Below are positions 1 through 9,584 of a DNA stretch of 38,295 bases, piece by piece; position 1 is the first letter of the stretch, and each line of letters begins with the position of its first letter. Below the pieces are notes generated by a model. It was given only the letters and a program-made list of their open reading frames with translations, did not search any database and was not told the origin of the DNA. Source of the DNA: Candidatus Latescibacterota bacterium (lineage in GTDB: Bacteria; Latescibacterota; UBA2968); the NCBI GenBank assembly GCA_021295695.1, contig JAGWBW010000003.1, positions 1-38,295 of the forward strand, read 5' to 3'. Position numbers and translations under genes: made by a program.

Positions 1-189
1 GCGCAACACCATGGTTTGCTGAGCCGTAAAATTGCCAAAACCCTTCTCGCGATCCTGGGAATCCTGAGCAATTTTCAACCCGGTTTCCTCGGGGGTCGCG
101 GCGTCTGCACACACAGGCAGACACGCCAACAAGATCGGACAAAGCGCGAAAAACAAGAGCACTGACCGAGCGGGATACACGTGGATCAT
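1..189 (-). CDS. Outer-membrane lipoprotein-sorting protein (LolA/LolB-like), N-terminal part only
   Basis: The gene runs off the left edge; 63 codons are visible. A GGAGGAA ribosome site lies 4 bases before the ATG at 189. Residues 1-29 form a signal peptide with a hydrophobic core (LLFFALCPILLACL) ending near VCADA. The mature start contains an ETGLKIA segment, then a basic/acidic stretch and a GFGNFTAQQTMVLR segment, a pattern I recognise from the family called outer membrane lipoprotein-sorting protein, which often follows an MMPL exporter. Such proteins are periplasmic LolA-fold carriers of lipid or lipidated cargo. The gene starts 35 bases after the stop of the RND exporter gene, so it is probably its partner. 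The Lol fold itself is not visible in this fragment, so the call rests on the N-terminal motif and context. Confidence 0.7.
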   Translation of the reverse strand, partial: MIHVYPARSVLLFFALCPILLACLPVCADAATPEETGLKIAQDSQDREKGFGNFTAQQTMVLR

Positions 190-224
190 GATTTCCTCCC
201 ATCAATTTTTTGGGAACAGAGAAA

Positions 225-2510
225 TTATGGAGACTTTCGATCAATAGCCATCAACAGAGTGGGAAGAAGCACGAGATCGGCGACGAAAGCAGAAAAAATT
301 GTGATCGCAACCAGAAGGCCGAGTACCCAGTTAGGCTCGTATCCGGACGAGGCGAACACTAAGAAACCGGCTGTCAGAATGGCGGTAGTAGCCCACAACG
401 CTGGCCCCACGACGCGAAACGTGGCACGTACAGCATCGGACGACGATAGCCTTTGCCGGCGGGCTTTCAGATACTTGCTGAGAAAATGAATCGTATCGTC
501 CACGATGATGCCAATGGCGATCGCCGTTACCACAGACGCACCAAGCCCGACATGACCAACGATATGTCCCCAAAGACCGAAAGCCAAAATTGCGGGAACA
601 AAATTCGGCACCAGACAGATCAGGCCGATATAGACATTTCTGAAAACCAGAATCAGGATTAGCGAAATAAGCCCCGTGGCGAGAATCGTACCCACCAGCA
701 TGCTATTGACGTTCTGATTCGATAGATGAGCGGAGATCATGGTGAAACCCGAAGCTGGGCCTGCTATTTTGGACGCATTGGCCTGCAACCAATTTCGGGC
801 GCGTGCATCAATATCGAGATGGTCCCTCGTGGACGTGTTTTTGAGTACCACAGTCATTCGAGTCGCAGATTTGGCGACATCCATACGATCATTGAGATCA
901 GTACCAAAGGGCAATGAAAACTCGTAAAGAAGCAGGAACTGTGCAGCGAGTTCGGGATCGTCTGGTATGCGATAGAACGCCGGATCATCTCCGTGCATGT
1001 TCTCATTCAAACGCTTCATAATGTCCGGAAACGCCTGAACATGATGTACTTCGGGCTGCGCGCGGTACCATTCGGCAAACGAATCGACTGTGTGCAGGTA
1101 TTCGGGGTTGGTAATGCCGCCCTCGCGCCCGGAACTCAACGAGTATTCAAGCCGGTCCAACCCCGTCAGATTCTCGATAATAAAATCCGTATCGGTGCGA
1201 AAGGTGTAGCGGTCATCGAAATGGTGGAGCCAGTTATCGCTTAACTCGTTGCGGAGAACGCCGGTCGCCAACACTACGACTACGAGAATACTGGACCAAA
1301 GAAGCAGCTTGTGGTGCGCGACGACGCGCGCGCCGAGGCAGTCGAAGAAGGAAATTTCCCCCTCTTGAAGGGGCTTCACGCGTATGGGCAGAATCGAAAA
1401 CATCGCCGGGAGAAATGTCACGGAATAGATGAACGTGAACAGCACCCCAAGCGCGACCAGATTTCCGAGAACGTGAAACGGTGGAGAACTCGATGTGTTC
1501 AGACTGAGGAATCCGACCGAGGTTGTGGCGGATGTCAAAAACACCGGATACAGATTGTCGCGCAGGGAGTCCGCAAGTGCCGCATTCTTTTCCACCCCTC
1601 GGCGCATGCCAGACAGTGCGAGGGTTACGATGTGGATTGCCTGGGCAACCCCAACCGTCATAATGATGATCGGTACACTTGCACTGACCGGCGTGAGCAT
1701 TATGCCTAACCAACCAGCAACCCCCATGGTACTCAGAACGATGAATAGGAGAATGACGGCGATGGAAAGGGTGGTGTATATCGAGCGCATCAGAAGAGCC
1801 GCGATGACCAGGATAACAAGAAACACAATTGGGACGAGTTTTTCGCCATCATCCTGCACTGCGTCGGTAAAAGCCTGGTTCATGATCACATTGCCGGTCA
1901 GGAAATAGGCAAGGTCCGGATGGGCGGCGCGGGCCTCGTTGAGCAGGTCTTCGAGATAGTTCGAAATCTCTGCCCAGGCGGGTTCCTCCGGCTCGGACAG
2001 AGCGAAGCTGATGACCACACCGACCGTGCGCCCATCTTCGGCAATCAGTTGCCCAACGAGTTCGGGCTGATTCAGGGCAATGGTCCGAATCCGATCGAGT
2101 TCAGCATCGCTGAAAGACGCTGCGTCCTCTACCAGCGGTGCGATAGTCAGGTAGTCCTCAATAGCTTCACTGTGGAAATAATTGGTCAGTGAATTGACCC
2201 GTATCGAGTGCGGCGTTTGCCACGCGGCCTCAGTCAGTTCTTCAATCGCAGCGAGGGCCTCACGGGTGAACACCGTTCCCTCTCGCGCAGAAATCGCTAT
2301 CAATGCCGACCTTGATGCGGAATAAGTATCCTGCAATTTGTCGAATACAAGGAGGTGGGGATTGTCCTCGCCGAACAACACGCGATAGCTGCTGGAAACA
2401 GTAATGCCGGGCATGCCCACCGCTGCGGCAAGCATGGACAGCGTTGCGAGCAAGACAACCAGCCACTGATAGCGAAGAATGAAATTGATATAGCGGTCCA
2501 ATAGTGTCAT
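225..2510 (-). CDS. MMPL/RND-superfamily exporter (HpnN-like)
   Basis: A 761-residue inner-membrane exporter with the two-repeat RND plan. TM1 is at about 13-32, followed by a periplasmic loop to about 222, five TM segments at about 226-375, a seventh at about 402-420, a second loop to about 610, and a last TM block at 612-757. The second half carries the acidic pair expected for proton coupling (IGIIVDDTIHFL, about 680-690); the corresponding place in the first half (GVAQAIHIV) has none. Family members move lipids such as hopanoids or mycolate precursors. The ATG overlaps the stop of the FAD gene upstream (ATGA), so the two are translationally coupled, and a lipoprotein-sorting gene follows 35 bases downstream. 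The substrate cannot be read from sequence; a lipid made by the upstream oxidases is an inference. Confidence 0.85.
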   Translation of the reverse strand: MTLLDRYINFILRYQWLVVLLATLSMLAAAVGMPGITVSSSYRVLFGEDNPHLLVFDKLQDTYSASRSALIAISAREGTVFTREALAAIEELTEAAWQTPHSIRVNSLTNYFHSEAIEDYLTIAPLVEDAASFSDAELDRIRTIALNQPELVGQLIAEDGRTVGVVISFALSEPEEPAWAEISNYLEDLLNEARAAHPDLAYFLTGNVIMNQAFTDAVQDDGEKLVPIVFLVILVIAALLMRSIYTTLSIAVILLFIVLSTMGVAGWLGIMLTPVSASVPIIIMTVGVAQAIHIVTLALSGMRRGVEKNAALADSLRDNLYPVFLTSATTSVGFLSLNTSSSPPFHVLGNLVALGVLFTFIYSVTFLPAMFSILPIRVKPLQEGEISFFDCLGARVVAHHKLLLWSSILVVVVLATGVLRNELSDNWLHHFDDRYTFRTDTDFIIENLTGLDRLEYSLSSGREGGITNPEYLHTVDSFAEWYRAQPEVHHVQAFPDIMKRLNENMHGDDPAFYRIPDDPELAAQFLLLYEFSLPFGTDLNDRMDVAKSATRMTVVLKNTSTRDHLDIDARARNWLQANASKIAGPASGFTMISAHLSNQNVNSMLVGTILATGLISLILILVFRNVYIGLICLVPNFVPAILAFGLWGHIVGHVGLGASVVTAIAIGIIVDDTIHFLSKYLKARRQRLSSSDAVRATFRVVGPALWATTAILTAGFLVFASSGYEPNWVLGLLVAITIFSAFVADLVLLPTLLMAIDRKSP

Positions 2511-3883
2511 CCGTCGGCTCCATTTATACGGGACACCAGCAACTCCGCAACCTCATCCGCCGCACCTACGCCGCTGGCCAGAGCACCGTTCACCGAGGGC
2601 ACCCGCATGTAGTCACCCGCCAGGAAGAGATTCTTTACATCTCGGTCGAGTTGACGGCGCATCTCCGCCAGCCCTTTGAACATACCAGGTGCCATCATGC
2701 ATACGGCTTCTTTCCAGCGGTACACGCGCGTAAACAGCCCCTCGTCATCGTTGGGGAGGACGGAGTCAGGAGGTGGGTTGCGGCGCACGTCGCCAAGCAT
2801 CTGGCATTTTATCTCCTCGTCGTCCAGTGGCAACAACTCTTGTGCGCGATCCCTACCGACGAGCAGATCAAGCGTACTCTTGCCCGGCGGCGTGATAGCG
2901 GGCAAGTTTATGGATCGATCCAACAGAAGTGGCGTTTCGTCTTCGGGATACAACGCGCCGTGCCAACCGGGGGGGAGCGGGGGGTGGTCAAGGCCGATCA
3001 CGACGCGAACCCCAGTTGAGTAAGTGATCTTGCCGAGTGTGTGGCGAATCTCAGGCGGCAGATCGGGAATGACGTCCGCCACCTTTGTGGCGGGGAGGGC
3101 GCAAATGACCGCGTCCGCCTCTATGGGACCGTCGTCGGTGATCACGCTTGTCACAGTGCCATCTCGAATGACCACGCGCCTGACAGGCTTCGAAACGCGA
3201 ATGATATCTCCACATGCCTCAACCAGTGCGTGGGTCAGAGCACTGGCTCCCTGCTCTGGTACATAAATCTGATCCACCTTTAACAACATTTCCGCCAGAT
3301 ACGTCCGCATGTACGCCGCACCAGCGTATTCGATGTGGCCCATCGTCATCTCCAAAAATCCCCGTAGCGTTACCTTTAGATAATCGGGGAGGCCGATTCG
3401 ATCCAGATAGTCGCCAAAGTTCTCCTCTCCGTCGATATCGACGATCCGACATTCACTGGAGAAATTCAGGTAATCCGATTGTTGTTCGATTTCTCTGACT
3501 AACTTCAGGATCGGATAGGCTGTCCGGGGCGATAGGAATCCCAGTGTCCAGAACGGCGAGAGGTTCCTGATAAGGTCGCCAACAGATTGGATCGGTGTGG
3601 TTCGAACCCACCGGCCGTTTCTATACCAACCAAGGTTCATTTCCGAACGAATCAGAGGCAGTTCCAATTCCTCACACAGGCGAAAGGCAACATCGTATGA
3701 GGCGCAAAAAAAGTCTGCGCCTTCATCCAGGCAAAAACCATCCACCCTATCACCGCCCAGTCTTCCGCCCACGCGGTCATTGGCCTCGAGCAAAATGGGC
3801 GTAATGCCGCGCTTCTTGAGGGTGTAGGCGGCACTCAGTCCTGCCGCTCCTCCACCAATTATGATGACTTTTTTGGTTTCCAT
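2507..3883 (-). CDS. FAD-dependent amine oxidase-like protein (protoporphyrinogen oxidase / phytoene desaturase type)
   Basis: A 458-residue flavoprotein. The N-terminal Rossmann motif GGGAAG (10-15) is followed by the acidic ribose-binding end of strand 2 and an RVGGR motif (about 37-41). The C-terminal FAD motif LFLAGDYMRVPSVNGALASG is at about 425-445. This arrangement is that of the flavin-containing amine oxidase clan, which includes protoporphyrinogen oxidases, carotenoid desaturases and squalene or hydroxysqualene oxidoreductases. The exact substrate is not identifiable. It sits between an MpaB-type oxygenase and an RND exporter, and its stop overlaps the exporter start by 4 bases, which suggests a role in desaturating or oxidising a lipid. 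AAGGAG lies 13 bases before the ATG, a slightly long spacing. No signal peptide is seen, so it is cytoplasmic or peripheral. Confidence 0.85.
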   Translation of the reverse strand: METKKVIIIGGGAAGLSAAYTLKKRGITPILLEANDRVGGRLGGDRVDGFCLDEGADFFCASYDVAFRLCEELELPLIRSEMNLGWYRNGRWVRTTPIQSVGDLIRNLSPFWTLGFLSPRTAYPILKLVREIEQQSDYLNFSSECRIVDIDGEENFGDYLDRIGLPDYLKVTLRGFLEMTMGHIEYAGAAYMRTYLAEMLLKVDQIYVPEQGASALTHALVEACGDIIRVSKPVRRVVIRDGTVTSVITDDGPIEADAVICALPATKVADVIPDLPPEIRHTLGKITYSTGVRVVIGLDHPPLPPGWHGALYPEDETPLLLDRSINLPAITPPGKSTLDLLVGRDRAQELLPLDDEEIKCQMLGDVRRNPPPDSVLPNDDEGLFTRVYRWKEAVCMMAPGMFKGLAEMRRQLDRDVKNLFLAGDYMRVPSVNGALASGVGAADEVAELLVSRINGADG

Positions 3884-4014
3884 TACAAAAGATTCACTCC
3901 TTCGACCATCAACGGCCAGATATGACGATAAGCACAGGGCGTTGAATGCTCACCATTATCGACACTGCCAAAAGTAGATAATCTAACTGACTATCTCGCT
4001 TCCCACAATCGCAC

Positions 4015-5193
4015 TTACCACCTACTCGCAGCATCTGCGTGCAGGCGGTTGGGCAAGCGGTAACTGATCAGATCTTCATCGAGCATAGATATATCGAGCA
4101 GGGTCATGAAATTCCTACCACGCTGTCTCGGGATCTTTCCCCATCGAAAGGCGTCGATGATCTCCTGAATTCTGCACCTCAGCCGCAAATATGCCAGCGT
4201 CCCGGCCCCCGCTGTTCGATCATTTGGGAACATGAGTTGGTCGGCGAGTTCGTCTCCAAGTAAAGATCGGGAAAGGCGATACCCATAATTAGACAGTTCA
4301 TCTCGCTCGTCCCTATCTTCAAGACCGATCACCAGGGGAGCCGAGGCAATCACCGAGTTTGCCATAGCAATAGCTTCCAAACCGGGGGGCGGTTCGCAGA
4401 TATAACCCACGCGAAATATTTCCCTGGCTTCGGTCTCATTGCTAAACAGGAGTGCCTCGGGCACACCCATCAGGTGAGCCGTATAGCGCCAGATTTTCAT
4501 GAAACTGTCGCGCTCTTCATCGGTCAGACGCGCGCCGATCCTCGCGGCTGAATGCAGCATCATTCCGGAGAAATTACAGGATGCAAGCGCGACGTGGGCA
4601 GCGCTAATCGGCATTCCGTGGGCTTCATGGTCCCAATCTTCAGAAGCGATAAGATGTCGCCTGACCTGTGCATGCACCAGTCTGAGGCGAACGGACAGTT
4701 TCCAACCTTCGCCATGTCGCTCCAGACCACCCGGCAACATAATTTCCAGGAGATGCCGAATATTCTGCCTCAGCCGCCGCACACCCCAATCGGTCAGCCT
4801 TCCCGTAATAAAGAACGATTGGCTGATTAGCGTCGTGAAACCCCGTATGATAATATCGGCTACGAACGCGGTGAGAAACAGATCTGAGTAGGCGTGGAAG
4901 CCTCTGCATCCGGGATATACGGACTGTGGATCGAACCACGCGGGTGGCGTCCCGATCTTCTCGAAAAACTCCTGCACCACCTGCGGCGCATCACGCAGCA
5001 CCTCCTCATCCAGGTCCATCCCAGCCCTGATGAATTCGGCCTGTTGCTTCTCGTCAATACCGGCTAATCCATTGATCAAGGCATCGGCATCGGGATCGCC
5101 GATGAGTATGTGCTGGATGTACGTTTTGGCGAGGTCGGGATCGGTCAGAAGGGCCTCTTTATACCCGGGTTGATATGAAGAAGGTATCTGCAA
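4015..5193 (-). CDS. MpaB / rubber-oxygenase family protein (DUF2236)
   Basis: A 392-residue protein with the core motifs of the ER-bound oxygenase MpaB / latex-clearing protein catalytic domain: RLRLVHAQVR (about 169-178, where His174 is the likely heme ligand), WDHEAHGMPIS (187-197), then FSGMMLH and ARLTDEERDSFMKIWRYTAHLMGV (221-244), the regular helical pattern of the family. Known members cleave isoprenoid double bonds with heme b and O2 (rubber; the farnesyl chain of mycophenolate precursors), but most bacterial members are uncharacterised. Translation begins at a TTG with GAGG 7 bases upstream; no better ATG is available. It is the first gene of the cassette, 131 bases upstream of the FAD gene, with an AT-rich promoter region before it. 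No signal peptide is obvious. Confidence 0.85.
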   Translation of the reverse strand: MQIPSSYQPGYKEALLTDPDLAKTYIQHILIGDPDADALINGLAGIDEKQQAEFIRAGMDLDEEVLRDAPQVVQEFFEKIGTPPAWFDPQSVYPGCRGFHAYSDLFLTAFVADIIIRGFTTLISQSFFITGRLTDWGVRRLRQNIRHLLEIMLPGGLERHGEGWKLSVRLRLVHAQVRRHLIASEDWDHEAHGMPISAAHVALASCNFSGMMLHSAARIGARLTDEERDSFMKIWRYTAHLMGVPEALLFSNETEAREIFRVGYICEPPPGLEAIAMANSVIASAPLVIGLEDRDERDELSNYGYRLSRSLLGDELADQLMFPNDRTAGAGTLAYLRLRCRIQEIIDAFRWGKIPRQRGRNFMTLLDISMLDEDLISYRLPNRLHADAASRW

Positions 5194-5270
5194 TTCAGCA
5201 CCTCACAAATTTTCGAGATCAGTTAGCGAAACACCTGCTTAAGTTATAAATAAAAACTCTTTATAAAAAA

Positions 5271-5300
5271 AATATTTGATAATAGTGATTTTTTTGTCAA
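5271..5300 (-). promoter_or_regulatory. Candidate promoter for the MpaB-FAD-RND cassette
   Basis: Perfect -35 TTGACA (5300-5295), then an 18-base spacer and AATATT (5276-5271, 4 of 6 matches to TATAAT). It lies in a strongly AT-rich 138-base intergenic stretch, about 80 bases before the TTG start of the oxygenase gene. The -10 is weak and AT-rich DNA gives chance matches. Confidence 0.35.
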
Positions 5301-5331
5301 GTGTTATTTATTTTTTAATAGTTTGGCTGCC

Positions 5332-5811
5332 TCATCTCGCCAAATGTCCTCCCATCTCACACACAATCTCGAACTCCTCCTTTGTCACCGGCTGAATTGA
5401 CAACCGCTGTCCGCGCTGAACCACCTTCATATCTTTGAGCATGGGATTATTCTTGAGATCTTGCAAGCTAACATAAGGCTCAAATGCTTTTGACCATTGC
5501 ACATCAAAAGAAAACCAGCGCGGATCTTCTTTGGAGGACTTCTCGTCGTAGTACTCGTGCTGCGCATCGAATTGTGATGGATCGGGATATCCCGCACGCA
5601 CAATATTGGCAATACCGGCAATACCGGGATTTTTACAATTCGACTGATAGAAAAGCGCCTGATCGCCTTTTTGCATTTCGTCGCGGATAAAATTGCGCGC
5701 CTGATAATTGCGCACCCCTCGCCAGTACCCAATACCACTGGGCCGATTGCTCAACTCTTCAAAAGAGCACACATCGTATTCGCACTTTACAAGCCAGTAT
5801 TTTTGGGCCAT
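5332..5811 (-). CDS. EVE-domain protein
   Basis: A 159-residue single-domain protein matching the EVE (PUA-like) family from end to end: MAQKYWLVKCEY at the start, YWRGVRNYQARNFI (about 29-42), KGDQALFYQS (49-58), GIAGIANIV (62-70), then the basic C-terminal half. EVE domains bind modified bases in DNA or RNA, and stand-alone bacterial members are small nucleic-acid-binding proteins of unknown role. GAGG lies 5 bases before the ATG. It is the last gene of the dipeptidase-sulfatase operon, 13 bases after the sulfatase stop, with no evident functional link to those enzymes. Family call is firm; function is open. Confidence 0.9.
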   Translation of the reverse strand: MAQKYWLVKCEYDVCSFEELSNRPSGIGYWRGVRNYQARNFIRDEMQKGDQALFYQSNCKNPGIAGIANIVRAGYPDPSQFDAQHEYYDEKSSKEDPRWFSFDVQWSKAFEPYVSLQDLKNNPMLKDMKVVQRGQRLSIQPVTKEEFEIVCEMGGHLAR

Positions 5812-5824
5812 AGCATCCTCACAA

Positions 5825-7282
5825 TTATTGTGCGGCGTCTTTCCATTTCTGATAATTTGGCGACAGGCTCAGCGCGCCATCTACCTGTGGCACGAGTTCC
5901 CCATTTTGTCCCCTCGGATCGCCCCGATTTTCATTCACCTCTGCCAATCGCCTGCGCCACATCGCAATACGCGCTTCATAAGCCGGATCTCCGGACAACT
6001 CGCAACATTCCAACGGATCGTCATCCAGATTAAAAAACTGTTCTTCTCCCGTGTGATGGAACCAGATATACTTCTCGTGCCCATCGGTGACATATTGCAT
6101 CCCGTGTTCTCTTGTATAACACGACGTATGCTCGCCCTGCACAAACTCGCGCCATCCCTCATCATCCCCGCACGCAATATCCAGAAGAGAACGTCCATCT
6201 ACAGATGCCGGTACATCGACCTCAGCAGCATCGAGCAACGTGGGCATCACATCGCGCAACTCCACCGGGTGATCATACTTCTCCCCTCGCGCCACATCGC
6301 GCCATGTATCGGGATATTTAACAATAAACGGAATGCGTGCAGACCCTTCGTAAGCGTAAGTCTTTCGCCAGTGGTGATGATCGCCCATCATATCGCCGTG
6401 ATCAGATGTAAAAATAATCAAAGTATTACGGTATGCCTGCGGATCCTGATGGCGCAACTCGTACAGCACGCGCCCAATCTGGTGATCAATAAACGTAATA
6501 TTGCCGTAATATCCCGCCCGCCCCCTGTGCGTTTCCGCATCGGAACGATGCGAACGCGGCGCATTGACATCTGCAATTTTTTTGTCAAACTCCCCTGCCC
6601 AGTCTCCCACAGCGGCTTTGGGTATATTGTCATTATCGATATACATATCCCAATACGCCTGGGGCGCATCATAAGGCGAATGGGGACGCGCAAATGAAAG
6701 CCACATAAAAAACGGTTTGGTCGGATCGCGCTGCTGCAGAAATTTAATCCCCTCGCTCGCCGTCCAGTGCGTCGGATGCAAATGCTCGGGCAAATGGCTG
6801 GGGCGCGCCATCCAGGAATTCCAATCGATACTGTGATCCCGGTACCCGTAAGCACCTTCCTTGTGCTGCTCGAAAAACAGGTGATAATCGCTGATGAAAT
6901 TGCCCACTCGCCGTCCACTCTCATCCAGCACCATGTGGTGAAAACCGTATAGCCTGCGCTGCGGAGCATGGTGCATCTTGCCCACAGCCTGCGTGTGATA
7001 TCCCGCTGATGCAAGTTCTCCCGGCAATGTCGCCGGATATTCCAGTGGATCGCCTCCCGTCATTGTCAACCGCCCGTGATTCCATTGATCCATCCCCGTG
7101 ATAATCCCCGCGCGTGCAGGCGTACACGACGGCACCGATGTATATGCGTGGGGGAAATGCGCCCCTCGCTCGGCCAATTCATCGAGATATGGCGTCTCCA
7201 GCGCCGGATGCCCATCACATCCCAGACAATCTCCGCGCTGTTGATCTGTTGTAATCAACAACAAATTTGGTCGCTCTGACAT
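5825..7282 (-). CDS. Sulfatase (type I, formylglycine-dependent)
   Basis: A 485-residue arylsulfatase-family enzyme. The metal-binding start PNLLLITTDQQRGD (5-18) is followed by the sulfatase signature SCTPARAG at about 52-59, in which Cys53 of the CxPxR motif would be oxidised to formylglycine. GKMHHA at about 105 and FTSDHGDMMGDH at about 292-303 supply the other metal and sulfate ligands. It hydrolyses a sulfate ester (or possibly a phosphonate or phosphate ester; the superfamily is promiscuous). There is no signal peptide, so it should act in the cytoplasm on an imported small molecule rather than on extracellular polysaccharide. A formylglycine-generating enzyme is needed and is not in this window. 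GAGAGG precedes the ATG by 8 bases; it lies 12 bases after the second dipeptidase. Confidence 0.93.
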   Translation of the reverse strand: MSERPNLLLITTDQQRGDCLGCDGHPALETPYLDELAERGAHFPHAYTSVPSCTPARAGIITGMDQWNHGRLTMTGGDPLEYPATLPGELASAGYHTQAVGKMHHAPQRRLYGFHHMVLDESGRRVGNFISDYHLFFEQHKEGAYGYRDHSIDWNSWMARPSHLPEHLHPTHWTASEGIKFLQQRDPTKPFFMWLSFARPHSPYDAPQAYWDMYIDNDNIPKAAVGDWAGEFDKKIADVNAPRSHRSDAETHRGRAGYYGNITFIDHQIGRVLYELRHQDPQAYRNTLIIFTSDHGDMMGDHHHWRKTYAYEGSARIPFIVKYPDTWRDVARGEKYDHPVELRDVMPTLLDAAEVDVPASVDGRSLLDIACGDDEGWREFVQGEHTSCYTREHGMQYVTDGHEKYIWFHHTGEEQFFNLDDDPLECCELSGDPAYEARIAMWRRRLAEVNENRGDPRGQNGELVPQVDGALSLSPNYQKWKDAAQ

Positions 7283-7294
7283 ATTTGTATCCTC

Positions 7295-8380
7295 TCACTT
7301 TTCCCACACCGATTTCAACAACCGCACCCAATTTCCCGACAACACCTTTTGAATATCTTCCTGTGAATATCCGCGCCGTTCAAAAATAGGCACCAGATTT
7401 TGCAAATCGGCAATTGTATTTAAATCTCGTGGCGATTGTTCCTGGCCAAATCCCCCATCGAGATCTGTCCCAATGCCCGAATGATTCGCATTGCCGGCAA
7501 GCTGACACACATGATCGATGTGATCGACCACTGTTTCGAGCGTTGCCTTTGTGGTCTGCTCATAACACGGTACGCTCCGCTTCCACTCAGGATCGAGCAT
7601 CCACGCATCAAAAGCCGCGCCAATAACCCCGCCGCGTTCTACAATTGCGCGGATCATATCATCTGTCAACTGCCTCTGCCCCGGCGTCAATGACCGACAA
7701 TTGTGATGGCTTGCAGCCACCGGCCCGTCGTAATAATCGAGAATTTCCCAGAATGCCTGATCAGTCGTATGTGTCAAATCCACAATAATTCCCGCGGCTT
7801 TGAGCGCGTCGAGCAATGGCCTGCCCCGATCCAGCAATCCCCCCTCCGTCCCTGTTCCGTGACAATAAGAACTCACGCCATAATGCGAAATACTCACCAT
7901 TTTCAAGCCCAGATCGCGCCATTCGGACACCTGATCGGGATCGAGAATCGGATCGGCACTTTCCATTGCCAGCACCAGACCGATGGGGGTATCTGCCGAA
8001 GGCAGTGCCCACGCCGCAACGCATTCATCCAAATCCTCAATCGTATGAATCTGCCGGATAATCCCCCGTCGTTCTATCGCCTTATAAAAGGCGTAATGTC
8101 CCTTTCCGATACCATAACACTGCGTCTGATCCCACATTCCCGTGCGCGTCCAGCGATCATTGGAATCAATACGCGACATCACCGTTCCAAACACAATCCC
8201 CACGCGACCCTTGTGCAACTCGGAAAAAGTCGTCGTACACGACCCAAAACTGCGCGTAGTTGGTTCCGAGTCGTGTACTCGCACAGTTGCAGCGGGCTGC
8301 GTGAGATCGCGGTTGACCTGAATGGCGCAAAAGGCGAGGTCTAAGTGGCTATCGACAATAAAGTAGGTATGATCGGACAT
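7295..8380 (-). CDS. Membrane dipeptidase family (peptidase M19), second tandem copy
   Basis: A 361-residue M19 dipeptidase. All di-zinc ligands of the renal dipeptidase family can be seen: HxD in VDSHLDL (His12, Asp14), Glu in AMESADPI, His in DLTHTTD, His in ASHHNCRSL and Asp in GTDLDGGFG. I start it at the ATG at 8380: a GGGGA site is properly placed, translation begins one base after the stop of the upstream copy, and the protein then aligns with its neighbour. A longer reading frame begins 16 codons earlier inside the upstream gene and is unlikely. No signal peptide or lipobox, so it is cytoplasmic. Substrate may be a dipeptide or an N-acyl D-amino acid derivative; the family is broad. 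Confidence 0.92.
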   Translation of the reverse strand: MSDHTYFIVDSHLDLAFCAIQVNRDLTQPAATVRVHDSEPTTRSFGSCTTTFSELHKGRVGIVFGTVMSRIDSNDRWTRTGMWDQTQCYGIGKGHYAFYKAIERRGIIRQIHTIEDLDECVAAWALPSADTPIGLVLAMESADPILDPDQVSEWRDLGLKMVSISHYGVSSYCHGTGTEGGLLDRGRPLLDALKAAGIIVDLTHTTDQAFWEILDYYDGPVAASHHNCRSLTPGQRQLTDDMIRAIVERGGVIGAAFDAWMLDPEWKRSVPCYEQTTKATLETVVDHIDHVCQLAGNANHSGIGTDLDGGFGQEQSPRDLNTIADLQNLVPIFERRGYSQEDIQKVLSGNWVRLLKSVWEK

Positions 8381-8381
8381 G

Positions 8382-9509
8382 TCATCCCCAAGCAGAGGTA
8401 AAAAACCGCACCAAATTCCCATGCGCAAATCCCTTCACATCGTCTTCCCCATAGCCGTGATCGCGCATGAGATTTAGAAAACGCTGCAAATCGTCAATCG
8501 TATGATAATCCGTGGGCGAAAGCTCCAGCCCAAATCCCCCATCCAGATCCGTGCCATAAGCCACATGATCTGTACTACCTGTAAGTTCGCAGATGTGATC
8601 GATGTGTTCGAGCACCGCCTTCATTGGTCGGGTTGCCGTGGTATAATGCGTACGCGGATCGTCCCAATTCCACGCCGGAGACAGCATCTGCTCGGCAAAA
8701 ACCATCCCAATTACGCCACCCCGGTCCGTGATCGCGCGGATCATATCGTCCGACAAATGCCGCTGCCCCGGCACCAATGCGCGACAATTGCAATGGCTGG
8801 CATGCACTGGACCCTTCCAATAATCGAGAATATGCCAGAAGGTGAGGTCTGCCGCATGGGTCAGATCCAGCGCAATATCCGTCTCAGACAGCGCGTCCAT
8901 CAGTGCGTAAGCCGGTGGATATAATCCGCCCACCGTACCCGTGCCGTGCCCATATGTATTGGCACCAAAATGCGTCAAAGACACCGAGCGCAGTCCCGCC
9001 TCATACCATTCGCCCACCTGATCGGGACCCAGAATCGGATCGGCACTTTCCATCGACAAAATAAGCCCCACGGGTGTATCGTCCGAGGGGCTTTCCCAGT
9101 CTGCAACACAAGTATTGAGATCTGCCACAGATTTGATAAACCGAATCTCTCCACATCGTTCCAGCGCCCGATAATACGCCAGATGGGATTGCCCCCGCGC
9201 ATAAGCCACATCCTGTGTACGCACTGCATTGTGCGTATTATCATGTGGATTTTGCACACGACACATAATGGTCGAAAGCATAATCCCCACGCGCCCTTTG
9301 CGCATCTCGGGCAAACAAACAGTTGGCGTAAACCGCTTGGGCTGTGGTCCCAGGCGTTGCTCCAGCGAATCCGGATGGGCCGATAATCCCCCCACCATGC
9401 TGTCTTCGCGCTCGCGCAACACATATACAGACTGCGTGAGATCTCGGCGATAAAATAGCGCGTTAAACGCCATATCGAGATGCCCATCTATAATCAAATA
9501 TTCGCGCAT
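8382..9509 (-). CDS. Membrane dipeptidase family (peptidase M19), first tandem copy
   Basis: A 375-residue paralogue of the next gene, with which it shares long stretches (DLTQ near the start, LSMESADPILGPDQV, GTDLDGGFG). Metal ligands are complete: HxD at 10-12 (IIDGHLDM), Glu in the SMESAD segment, His in LDLTHAAD, His in ASHCNCRAL and Asp in GTDLDGG. I prefer the ATG at 9509 over a TTG two codons upstream, because GGGA is only 3 bases from the TTG. First gene of a four-gene operon (dipeptidase, dipeptidase, sulfatase, EVE). It has a 20-residue insertion near the N terminus (about 25-55) not present in the second copy, so the two probably differ in substrate. Cytoplasmic. Confidence 0.92.
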   Translation of the reverse strand: MREYLIIDGHLDMAFNALFYRRDLTQSVYVLREREDSMVGGLSAHPDSLEQRLGPQPKRFTPTVCLPEMRKGRVGIMLSTIMCRVQNPHDNTHNAVRTQDVAYARGQSHLAYYRALERCGEIRFIKSVADLNTCVADWESPSDDTPVGLILSMESADPILGPDQVGEWYEAGLRSVSLTHFGANTYGHGTGTVGGLYPPAYALMDALSETDIALDLTHAADLTFWHILDYWKGPVHASHCNCRALVPGQRHLSDDMIRAITDRGGVIGMVFAEQMLSPAWNWDDPRTHYTTATRPMKAVLEHIDHICELTGSTDHVAYGTDLDGGFGLELSPTDYHTIDDLQRFLNLMRDHGYGEDDVKGFAHGNLVRFFTSAWG

Positions 9510-9584
9510 ATCCAATATCCCAATTCAAAGGTTTGCTCGCTCATGGGTAACGTAGCACGCAAATCGCTCAAGAGCAAGAACAAT

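Follow-up and report, generated by a model that had tools for sequence, protein, structure and literature searches.

What does a putative heme oxygenase of the MpaB/Lcp family do beside the genes of a lipid exporter? The question is raised by the beginning of a 38,295-nucleotide stretch from a Candidatus Latescibacterota bacterium (contig JAGWBW010000003.1 of assembly GCA_021295695.1, positions 1 to 38,295; hereafter the window), where an MpaB-like gene, a gene for a flavin adenine dinucleotide (FAD) enzyme, an MMPL/RND transporter gene and the start of a LolA-like carrier gene lie together. An earlier note made from the sequence had read them as a lipid oxidation-and-export system, and this stands for the core of oxygenase, MMPL protein and carrier but not for the membership of the FAD enzyme or the labelling of the transporter as HpnN. 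We consider it somewhat probable that the genes belong to a five-gene, envelope-spanning operon by which a squalene-type isoprenoid is oxidised and the product exported. The following features are read 5' to 3' on the minus strand.

5332-5811, minus strand: EVE-domain gene, upstream of the leader and the MpaB-like gene
5194-5331, minus strand: AT-rich leader of 138 bases between the EVE-domain and MpaB-like genes, with a promoter-like site TTGACA-18-AATATT
4015-5193, minus strand: MpaB/Lcp-family oxygenase (PF09995, former DUF2236), 392 residues, TTG start
2507-3883, minus strand: FAD-dependent enzyme of the amine-oxidase superfamily, in the neighbourhood of protoporphyrinogen oxidase (PPO), HpnE and PRK07233, 458 residues; accessory gene
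225-2510, minus strand: MMPL/RND transporter of the HAE3 kind, 761 residues
1-189, minus strand: N-terminus of a LolA_like periplasmic carrier, 63 codons with an apparent signal sequence, the gene being cut by the contig end

All four genes run in the same direction, as had been claimed, the fourth being cut after 63 codons. They are separated by 131 nt (MpaB to FAD) and 35 nt (MMPL to LolA-like), and the FAD and MMPL genes overlap by the 4 bases ATGA (2507-2510) already described in the earlier note. The contig (53,151 bases) starts at base 1 of the window, so the LolA-like gene and the operon are cut there and the window genes are the 5' part of a truncated operon. Its start is probably the leader at 5194-5331. 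A consensus scan of 3880-5400 gave 5 promoter-like sites against 1.7 expected, and the segment 5028-5315, which includes most of the leader, recurs with 84% identity on another contig of the window's genome. Further upstream, the EVE-sulfatase-M19-M19 block (5332-9515, minus strand) is syntenic and 93-98% identical in same-genus genomes. None of the f2 and f4 family loci showed the block alongside the cassette, which suggests that the cassette moves on its own.

Conservation of the cassette was followed in 60 genomes, namely the window's own and 59 relatives, and in public loci, the best 80 of at least 314 relatives from one scan of a genome collection. Loci ending at contig ends were counted as without neighbours, and neighbours were labelled with small hidden Markov models (HMMs) built from the proteins of the window and its relatives, with Pfam and NCBIfam checks on representatives. 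MpaB matches are present in 23 of the 60 genomes, the window's own included, and MMPL directly adjoins MpaB in 17 of the 22 relatives with an oxygenase match (G001-G007, G010, G015-G018, G027, G040, G041, G044 and G045). The relatives lacking this adjacency are G009 (a homologue of 26% identity), G019 (a 57-residue fragment), G046 (sulfotransferase neighbour), G034 (ankyrin/acyltransferase and P450 neighbours) and G042, in which MpaB is cut by a contig end and a partial MMPL lies on another contig. Every relative with a whole MMPL at 59-61% identity (17 of 17) has MpaB beside it, and the more distant MMPLs (25-44%) of G014, G043 and G059 belong to genomes that lack an MpaB match. Records with a 74-89% identical MpaB are labelled mostly Candidatus Latescibacterota, with a few Gemmatimonadota or Chlorobiota.

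Of the 80 public loci, 38 have an MMPL gene within 6 kb of the oxygenase, and 31 have one within 300 bases. Other neighbours within 6 kb are sulfotransferase (15, of which 13 directly downstream), LolA-like (14), barrel (11), catalase-like (9), a second MpaB (7), redoxin-like (3) and P450-like (1). A representative MMPL from Chloroflexota was confirmed by Pfam (277.6 bits). Whether MMPL stands downstream or upstream of MpaB varies between lineages, the order in L128 being MMPL-LolA-MpaB. On an MpaB tree of 107 rows (103 different, some relatives being the same contigs as public loci; L068 and L036 were left out as short matches), the MMPL label is present in 53 rows with at least 11 changes of state, and the sulfotransferase label in 17 rows with 7 changes, L166 being scored without it though an open reading frame (ORF) matching the sulfotransferase model overlaps its MpaB place. 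In a second sample of 17 loci from 15 of the 16 Alphaproteobacteria genomes with the oxygenase (16 of 385; G061, identical to L135, was left out), MpaB is immediately adjoined by MMPL in 7, including a partial, 98-bit match in L165; L157 is the same contig as L138 of the public set, so that the two samples share at least one locus. The window's genome holds 21 MMPL-model matches in 5.3 Mb, 10 of them weak and in frames of 1,050-1,100 residues, which makes a chance adjacency of MpaB and MMPL unlikely.

The window MMPL is 57-61% identical to full-length MpaB-adjacent MMPLs in Latescibacterota, Alpha- and Gammaproteobacteria and Acidobacteriota. Between Latescibacterota and Acidobacteriota/Proteobacteria the LolA-like proteins are 65-75% identical (five loci), the barrel proteins 51-59% (two loci) and the MMPLs 57-61%, and these identities suggest that the cassette may have spread between phyla as a unit. 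The oxygenase, MMPL, carrier and barrel are a conserved core found in both gene orders and in several phyla. Since this gene order recurs widely, the FAD gene excepted, the arrangement is more than chance, and the MpaB-MMPL-carrier-barrel set very probably constitutes a functional unit. The earlier note had set the co-occurrence of the four families beforehand as its test and had considered that the oxidases might be chance neighbours of an RND/Lol pair; MpaB, MMPL and the LolA-like gene co-occur in related and unrelated genomes, the oxygenase being conserved with the pair, and only the FAD gene falls outside the conserved set.

The MpaB-like protein matches PF09995 with 69.6 bits (cut-off 23) and no signal peptide is apparent on inspection. 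Its AlphaFold2 model, built on an alignment of 44 sequences, has a pLDDT of 89.7 and a pTM of 0.90. The best Foldseek match is the rubber oxygenase Lcp (5o1l, E 2.4e-9, TM 0.67/0.70), the next is 5o1m, and the t-anethole oxygenase 8s1j follows Lcp (E 0.015, prob 1.00); sequence identity to Lcp over the structural match is about 16-17%. A heme pocket at His174 had been anticipated by the earlier note. His174 is invariant in all 44 aligned sequences (window plus 43 relatives), as are Arg140, Arg171 and Arg178. According to the phmmer alignment and numbering, His174 corresponds to Lcp His198, Arg171 and Arg178 to Arg195 and Arg202, and Arg140 to Arg164 by counting back from the alignment start. 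In the available part of a study of Lcp, His198 is the proximal heme ligand, Arg164, Arg195 and Arg202 are reported as important and Lys167 is conserved in just 59% of Lcps (PMC5522427). The protein is therefore modelled as an Lcp-like fold with conserved heme-site residues, and as such it may bind heme and oxidise an isoprenoid. From rubber-cleaving Lcp proper it differs in the distal Lys167/Thr168 pair, for which it has Gln143/Asn144 in the alignment. Cleavage of a double bond as the MpaB reaction is put forward only tentatively.

As regards the substrate, genes for the synthesis of squalene or other isoprenoids recur beside the oxygenase. Such a gene lies within 6 kb of MpaB in 9 of the 80 public loci, and its label, carried by 12 of the 107 tree rows, requires at least 10 changes. 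The density of isoprenoid genes is 0.036/kb at 0-2 kb from MpaB against 0.008/kb at 2-10 kb (p 0.001), and when the loci are grouped by eye into 7 lineages, 6 of these have the nearest such gene no more than 2 kb away (p 0.0009); the control is the outer flanks of the same loci, and related loci are not independent. The linked loci are as follows.

L123 (Pseudooceanicola): MpaB-HpnC-HpnD-HpnE-sulfotransferase; HpnE over its cut-off (312.6 vs 283.05), HpnC (229.6 vs 250.45) and HpnD (251.4 vs 278.6) under
L135 (Thalassobaculaceae): MpaB-sulfotransferase-catalase-like-HpnD-HpnE; HpnD and HpnE over cut-off
L164 (G593, Alphaproteobacteria): MpaB-catalase-like-HpnD-HpnE; HpnD and HpnE over cut-off
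L162 (G579, Alphaproteobacteria): MpaB-MMPL-squalene/phytoene synthase-barrel on one strand; Pfam over cut-off for the first three genes (synthase PF00494 185.2 bits), barrel DUF1302 21.9 vs 23.2; best NCBIfam model of the synthase is squalene synthase, 122 bits vs cut-off 286.75
L086 (Acidobacteria): IspH-synthase-synthase-MpaB, facing barrel-LolA-MMPL
L101 and L105 (= L181) (Rhodothermales): synthase-MpaB-MpaB-FAD
L063 (MpaB 85% identical, labelled Chlorobiota): IspG upstream of MpaB-FAD-MMPL, the MMPL partial at the stretch end
L113: MMPL-MpaB, followed within 9.4 kb by IspH and HpnE-HpnD-HpnC-like genes in convergent orientation
L095: MMPL-MpaB and convergent IspH
L075: HpnC/HpnD-like genes 4.5-5.4 kb from MpaB

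No squalene gene was found within 6 kb in the other 15 of the 17 Alphaproteobacteria loci. In G045, a synthase and an IspH match are on the contig of the MpaB-MMPL-LolA-barrel genes, on the opposite strand. The oxygenase is no common trait of Rhodobacterales (1 of 149 genomes, that of the query itself), and since it is so rare there, the squalene genes and MpaB of Pseudooceanicola may have arrived together. Isoprenoid oxidation, which the earlier note had proposed, thus gains independent support from the squalene-synthesis genes beside the oxygenase, and the "other membrane lipid" named with it stays a rival. Among the open-access titles listed, none joins this oxygenase to an MMPL exporter or to squalene synthesis, and in the accessible part of a paper on DUF2236 squalene occurs solely in a reference (PMC5658616). 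The repeated linkage of the oxygenase to squalene genes and its pairing with the exporter across phyla appear to be new, with no description in the literature searched.

The window's genome itself (93.8% complete) contains two tandem PF00494 genes on contig C378, which ends there; the second is HpnD (312.4 vs 278.6). The in-house HpnC/HpnD HMM contained these two genes, and the statement for this genome rests on PF00494 and NCBIfam. The N-terminal squalene-cyclase domain PF13249 was found in 1 of the 60 genomes (G013) and not in the window's own, the second cyclase domain not being searched; of 14 known genomes used as a control, Bacillus subtilis alone gave a match. G002, which has MpaB, carries an HpnC-HpnD-HpnE set by the in-house HMMs. 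In family f4 (25 genomes), 8 genomes have a strong synthase (at least 189 bits) and 8 have MpaB, 7 being common to both (hypergeometric p 0.0001).

The FAD protein is a member of the amine-oxidase superfamily (PF01593, 156.7 bits, cut-off 19.8), which preserves the general part of its earlier description as a flavoprotein like PPO or phytoene desaturase. The more specific names fail, as the protein is under every cut-off among the NCBIfam models shown (25 of 74), PPO (TIGR00562, 70.2 vs 97.85) and the hydroxysqualene dehydroxylase HpnE (TIGR03467, 76.7 vs 283.05) included. The gene was seen at none of the MpaB loci of the 22 relatives (G042 being cut on the FAD side), and just 4 of the 80 public loci have it within 6 kb of the oxygenase, so that it was rejected as a core gene and is optional, accessory to the cassette. 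The order MpaB-FAD-MMPL recurs once outside the window, in L063, whose FAD protein is 87.6% identical. The FAD protein of L101, which follows squalene synthase and two MpaB genes in Rhodothermales, is 72.5% identical to that of the window although the MpaBs are 48% identical, so that FAD enzymes of this type can apparently move together with squalene synthase and MpaB. It is no general trait of Rhodothermia (3 of 195 genomes).

Such neighbours bring to mind a C30 carotenoid route, in which the FAD enzyme would desaturate squalene, MpaB would cleave or oxidise the polyene and the exporter would move an apocarotenoid. The superfamily of the enzyme and its position after squalene synthase and MpaB in L101 and L105 (= L181) agree with this, and a C30 carotenoid gene cluster is reported in the portion available of a study of Methylobacterium extorquens AM1 (PMC10448405). 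However, CrtI/CrtD-type models match just the Rossmann part of the FAD protein with less than 45 bits, and 76 of the 80 public loci have no FAD gene within 6 kb, which leaves the carotenoid route quite unlikely.

Several observations weigh against the oxidation and export of a squalene-type isoprenoid. No MMPL lies within 6 kb of MpaB in 42 of the 80 public loci, and no isoprenoid gene in 71, in both cases partly because of contig ends. The isoprenoid genes of L095 and L113 are convergent and stand outside the MpaB operon. The MpaB-adjacent synthases tested are under the TIGR01559 cut-off (90-122 vs 286.75) and may therefore make a different C30 or C40 isoprenoid. The exchange of the distal Lys/Thr pair for Gln/Asn, less sure since it is at the alignment edge, means that the resting state, and perhaps the chemistry, may differ from Lcp. 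Two copies of the FAD gene occur in G680 on a 10-kb contig without MpaB. The complete same-genus genome G008, a single contig, has HpnC-HpnD-HpnE all over cut-off and no MpaB. The association in f4 weakens to p 0.004 when three weak PF00494 matches (G024, G032 and G035, 78-86 bits) are counted, is clustered by kinship (genus g13 alone p 0.09) and has exceptions in G037 (synthase without MpaB) and G027 (MpaB without synthase). All genomes of families f1 and f2 carry a PF00494 gene, whether MpaB is present or not, so squalene has another fate there as well and the profile is uninformative.

The many loci devoid of isoprenoid genes, together with the resemblance of the fold to t-anethole oxygenase, by which it is not limited to isoprenoids, would also suit a non-isoprenoid substrate. 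MpaB would then oxidise an unsaturated lipid of another kind, such as a polyunsaturated fatty acid, and the squalene genes would be chance or shared lipid-locus neighbours. As the isoprenoid link has arisen through so many changes for so few tree rows and decays with distance from MpaB, we regard this as very unlikely.

The transport genes speak for an envelope-spanning path. The MMPL protein matches PF03176 (110.3 bits, cut-off 20.5) and the sterol-sensing domain (30.1) in Pfam, and its best NCBIfam match is TIGR00921 (HAE3) at 113.6 bits, under the cut-off of 351.9. HpnN, the name given to it in the earlier note, proved too specific, its models TIGR03480 and NF052374 giving 86.4 and 43.6 bits against cut-offs of 751.85 and 1100; BstA was likewise rejected (17.3 bits vs 1400). 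The periplasmic Lol-like carrier, of which the window holds the N-terminus, was confirmed through an intact same-genus relative (L040:13166-13975), to which the 63 window residues are 68% identical over 60 residues and which matches PF17131 LolA_like with 207.5 bits and DUF1329 with 38.9. A full-length relative of the carrier matches the solved structure 3bk5 (E 2.7e-84). In relatives a fifth gene downstream of the LolA-like gene encodes a barrel protein (DUF1302 22.1 bits, cut-off 23.2). Its model is of low confidence (pLDDT 65, the five models differing widely) and shows 18 strands with matches to porins and the alginate exporter AlgE; the protein is thus a predicted outer-membrane barrel, the model being too weak for finer naming. 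From these protein types we infer delivery to the outer membrane.

The same transporters could instead serve in the uptake or detoxification of terpenoids from a host or the environment, with the MMPL, LolA-like and DUF1302 proteins handling foreign terpenes as AmeABCD does and MpaB starting their breakdown. Sponges are rich in terpenes, and the cassette is common in metagenome-assembled genomes that we take to be derived from marine sponges. In the part of the study at hand, deletion of ameABCD lowers the monoterpene tolerance of Castellaniella defragrans (PMC6394551). Nevertheless, the squalene genes inside or beside the cassette are biosynthetic, which makes terpenoid uptake or detoxification fairly unlikely, though the neighbours are annotated in part and catabolic genes may be nearby.

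Returning to the oxidation and export of an endogenous isoprenoid, the following sequence of steps can be envisaged. The cell would make a linear squalene-type isoprenoid, in the window's genome by the HpnC/HpnD/HpnE route and elsewhere by an adjoining squalene synthase. The cytosolic oxygenase, with its MpaB/Lcp fold and putative heme, would attack a C=C double bond of it, and the optional PPO/HpnE-like flavoenzyme may modify substrate or product. The MMPL/RND pump would then lift the oxidised lipid from the inner membrane, the LolA-like protein would carry it across the periplasm and the DUF1302-like barrel, encoded beyond the contig end, would pass it into or through the outer membrane. A broader proposal, to which we give somewhat less than even credence, is an as yet undescribed fate of bacterial squalene: in squalene makers without a cyclase MpaB would cleave or oxygenate linear squalene, a dedicated RND-LolA-barrel route or, in other lineages, a sulfotransferase module would yield an exported surface lipid or a compound given to a host, and the whole cassette would have passed from phylum to phylum. 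For one branch of PF09995 a substrate open to testing, namely squalene or a compound close to it, is thereby proposed and a likely export machinery named, and a possible use of squalene in producers without a cyclase is suggested, of which the cassette would export an oxidised form.

A second recurrent module has a sulfotransferase-type gene directly after MpaB, in 13 of the 80 public loci (L069, L072, L074-L076, L078, L081, L096, L103, L107, L121, L122 and L135), in some Proteobacteria also with a catalase-like protein. The latter name is presumed from our reading of its motifs, and three members tested gave no Pfam match. The module suggests a sulfated oxidised lipid, and a sulfotransferase beside MpaB in other lineages fits an oxidised, sulfatable product. 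Strains with the oxygenase include Methylovulum psychrotolerans Sph1 (MpaB-sulfotransferase), Azospirillum griseum and Pseudooceanicola sp. HF7 (MpaB-HpnCDE). In L057 (G034) a P450-type gene (Pfam 196 bits) is near MpaB instead of MMPL, and in L139 a P450-type neighbour, a weak match to a one-sequence model, likewise takes the place of MMPL. Recurrent long opposite-strand ORFs (cluster 13) were dismissed as a neighbour family, being probably a spurious frame.

Variant loci were also seen. L005, on contig C158 (4398 bases) of the window's own genome, is a second, rearranged version that shares the EVE end and the leader with the window and has the order EVE end, leader, redoxin, first 56 MpaB codons, MMPL tail, a different MpaB (47%) and MMPL. 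Either a paralogue or the presence of a strain variant in the bin may explain it. Its redoxin-like gene (L005:3694-4287, minus strand), with copies in L042, L044, L045, L048 and L052, is missing from the window copy of the locus; in L048 this ORF stands among the MMPL, LolA-like and barrel genes. In all 6 copies read, an in-frame TGA takes the place expected for the catalytic Cys (FFRGTW-TGA) and a hairpin is predicted some 10 bases further downstream, and the window's genome has a SelB gene over cut-off (345 bits); the product resembles a selenocysteine redoxin. In L051 (G004) two overlapping frames share the MpaB sequence between them, and in L036 (G018) MpaB is cut to 121 codons, the MMPL, carrier and barrel frames being intact in both.

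Comparison with known systems places the cassette between several of them. Lcp and the fungal MpaB share the Pfam domain PF09995 with the window oxygenase, and Lcp also has a similar fold (TM 0.65-0.70) with the proximal His and flanking Arg residues kept. In contrast to Lcp, the window protein appears cytosolic and its distal Lys/Thr pair is Gln/Asn; the substrates of Lcp and the fungal MpaB are rubber or farnesyl, whereas a squalene-type one is proposed here. The bacterial sterol transporters BstABC combine an RND pump with further lipid-carrier proteins, as the cassette does, but its MMPL is far below the BstA cut-off. HpnN, a hopanoid transporter, is likewise a pump of the MMPL/HAE3 kind with a triterpenoid as the proposed cargo taken from the inner membrane. 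The window MMPL, however, is far below the HpnN cut-offs, and no squalene-hopene cyclase domain was found in the window's genome. AmeABCD of Castellaniella defragrans is the nearest transport set known to us. In the part of the report available it comprises HAE3 RND, DUF1329/LolA-superfamily and DUF1302 proteins and exports monoterpenes (PMC6394551). The cassette appears to share with it an HAE3-like RND pump, a periplasmic protein of the LolA superfamily and an outer-membrane protein of DUF1302 type, though the window MMPL (HAE3) and the relatives' barrel (DUF1302) score under the cut-offs of these models. AmeABCD has in addition AmeC (COG4447), whereas same-genus operons such as L040 have no extra gene between MMPL, LolA-like and barrel genes, COG4447 not being searched genome-wide. 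The cargo of AmeABCD is a terpenoid, a monoterpene, and its genes are linked to monoterpene catabolism, while the cassette is linked to squalene synthesis and has a putative heme oxygenase as its partner.

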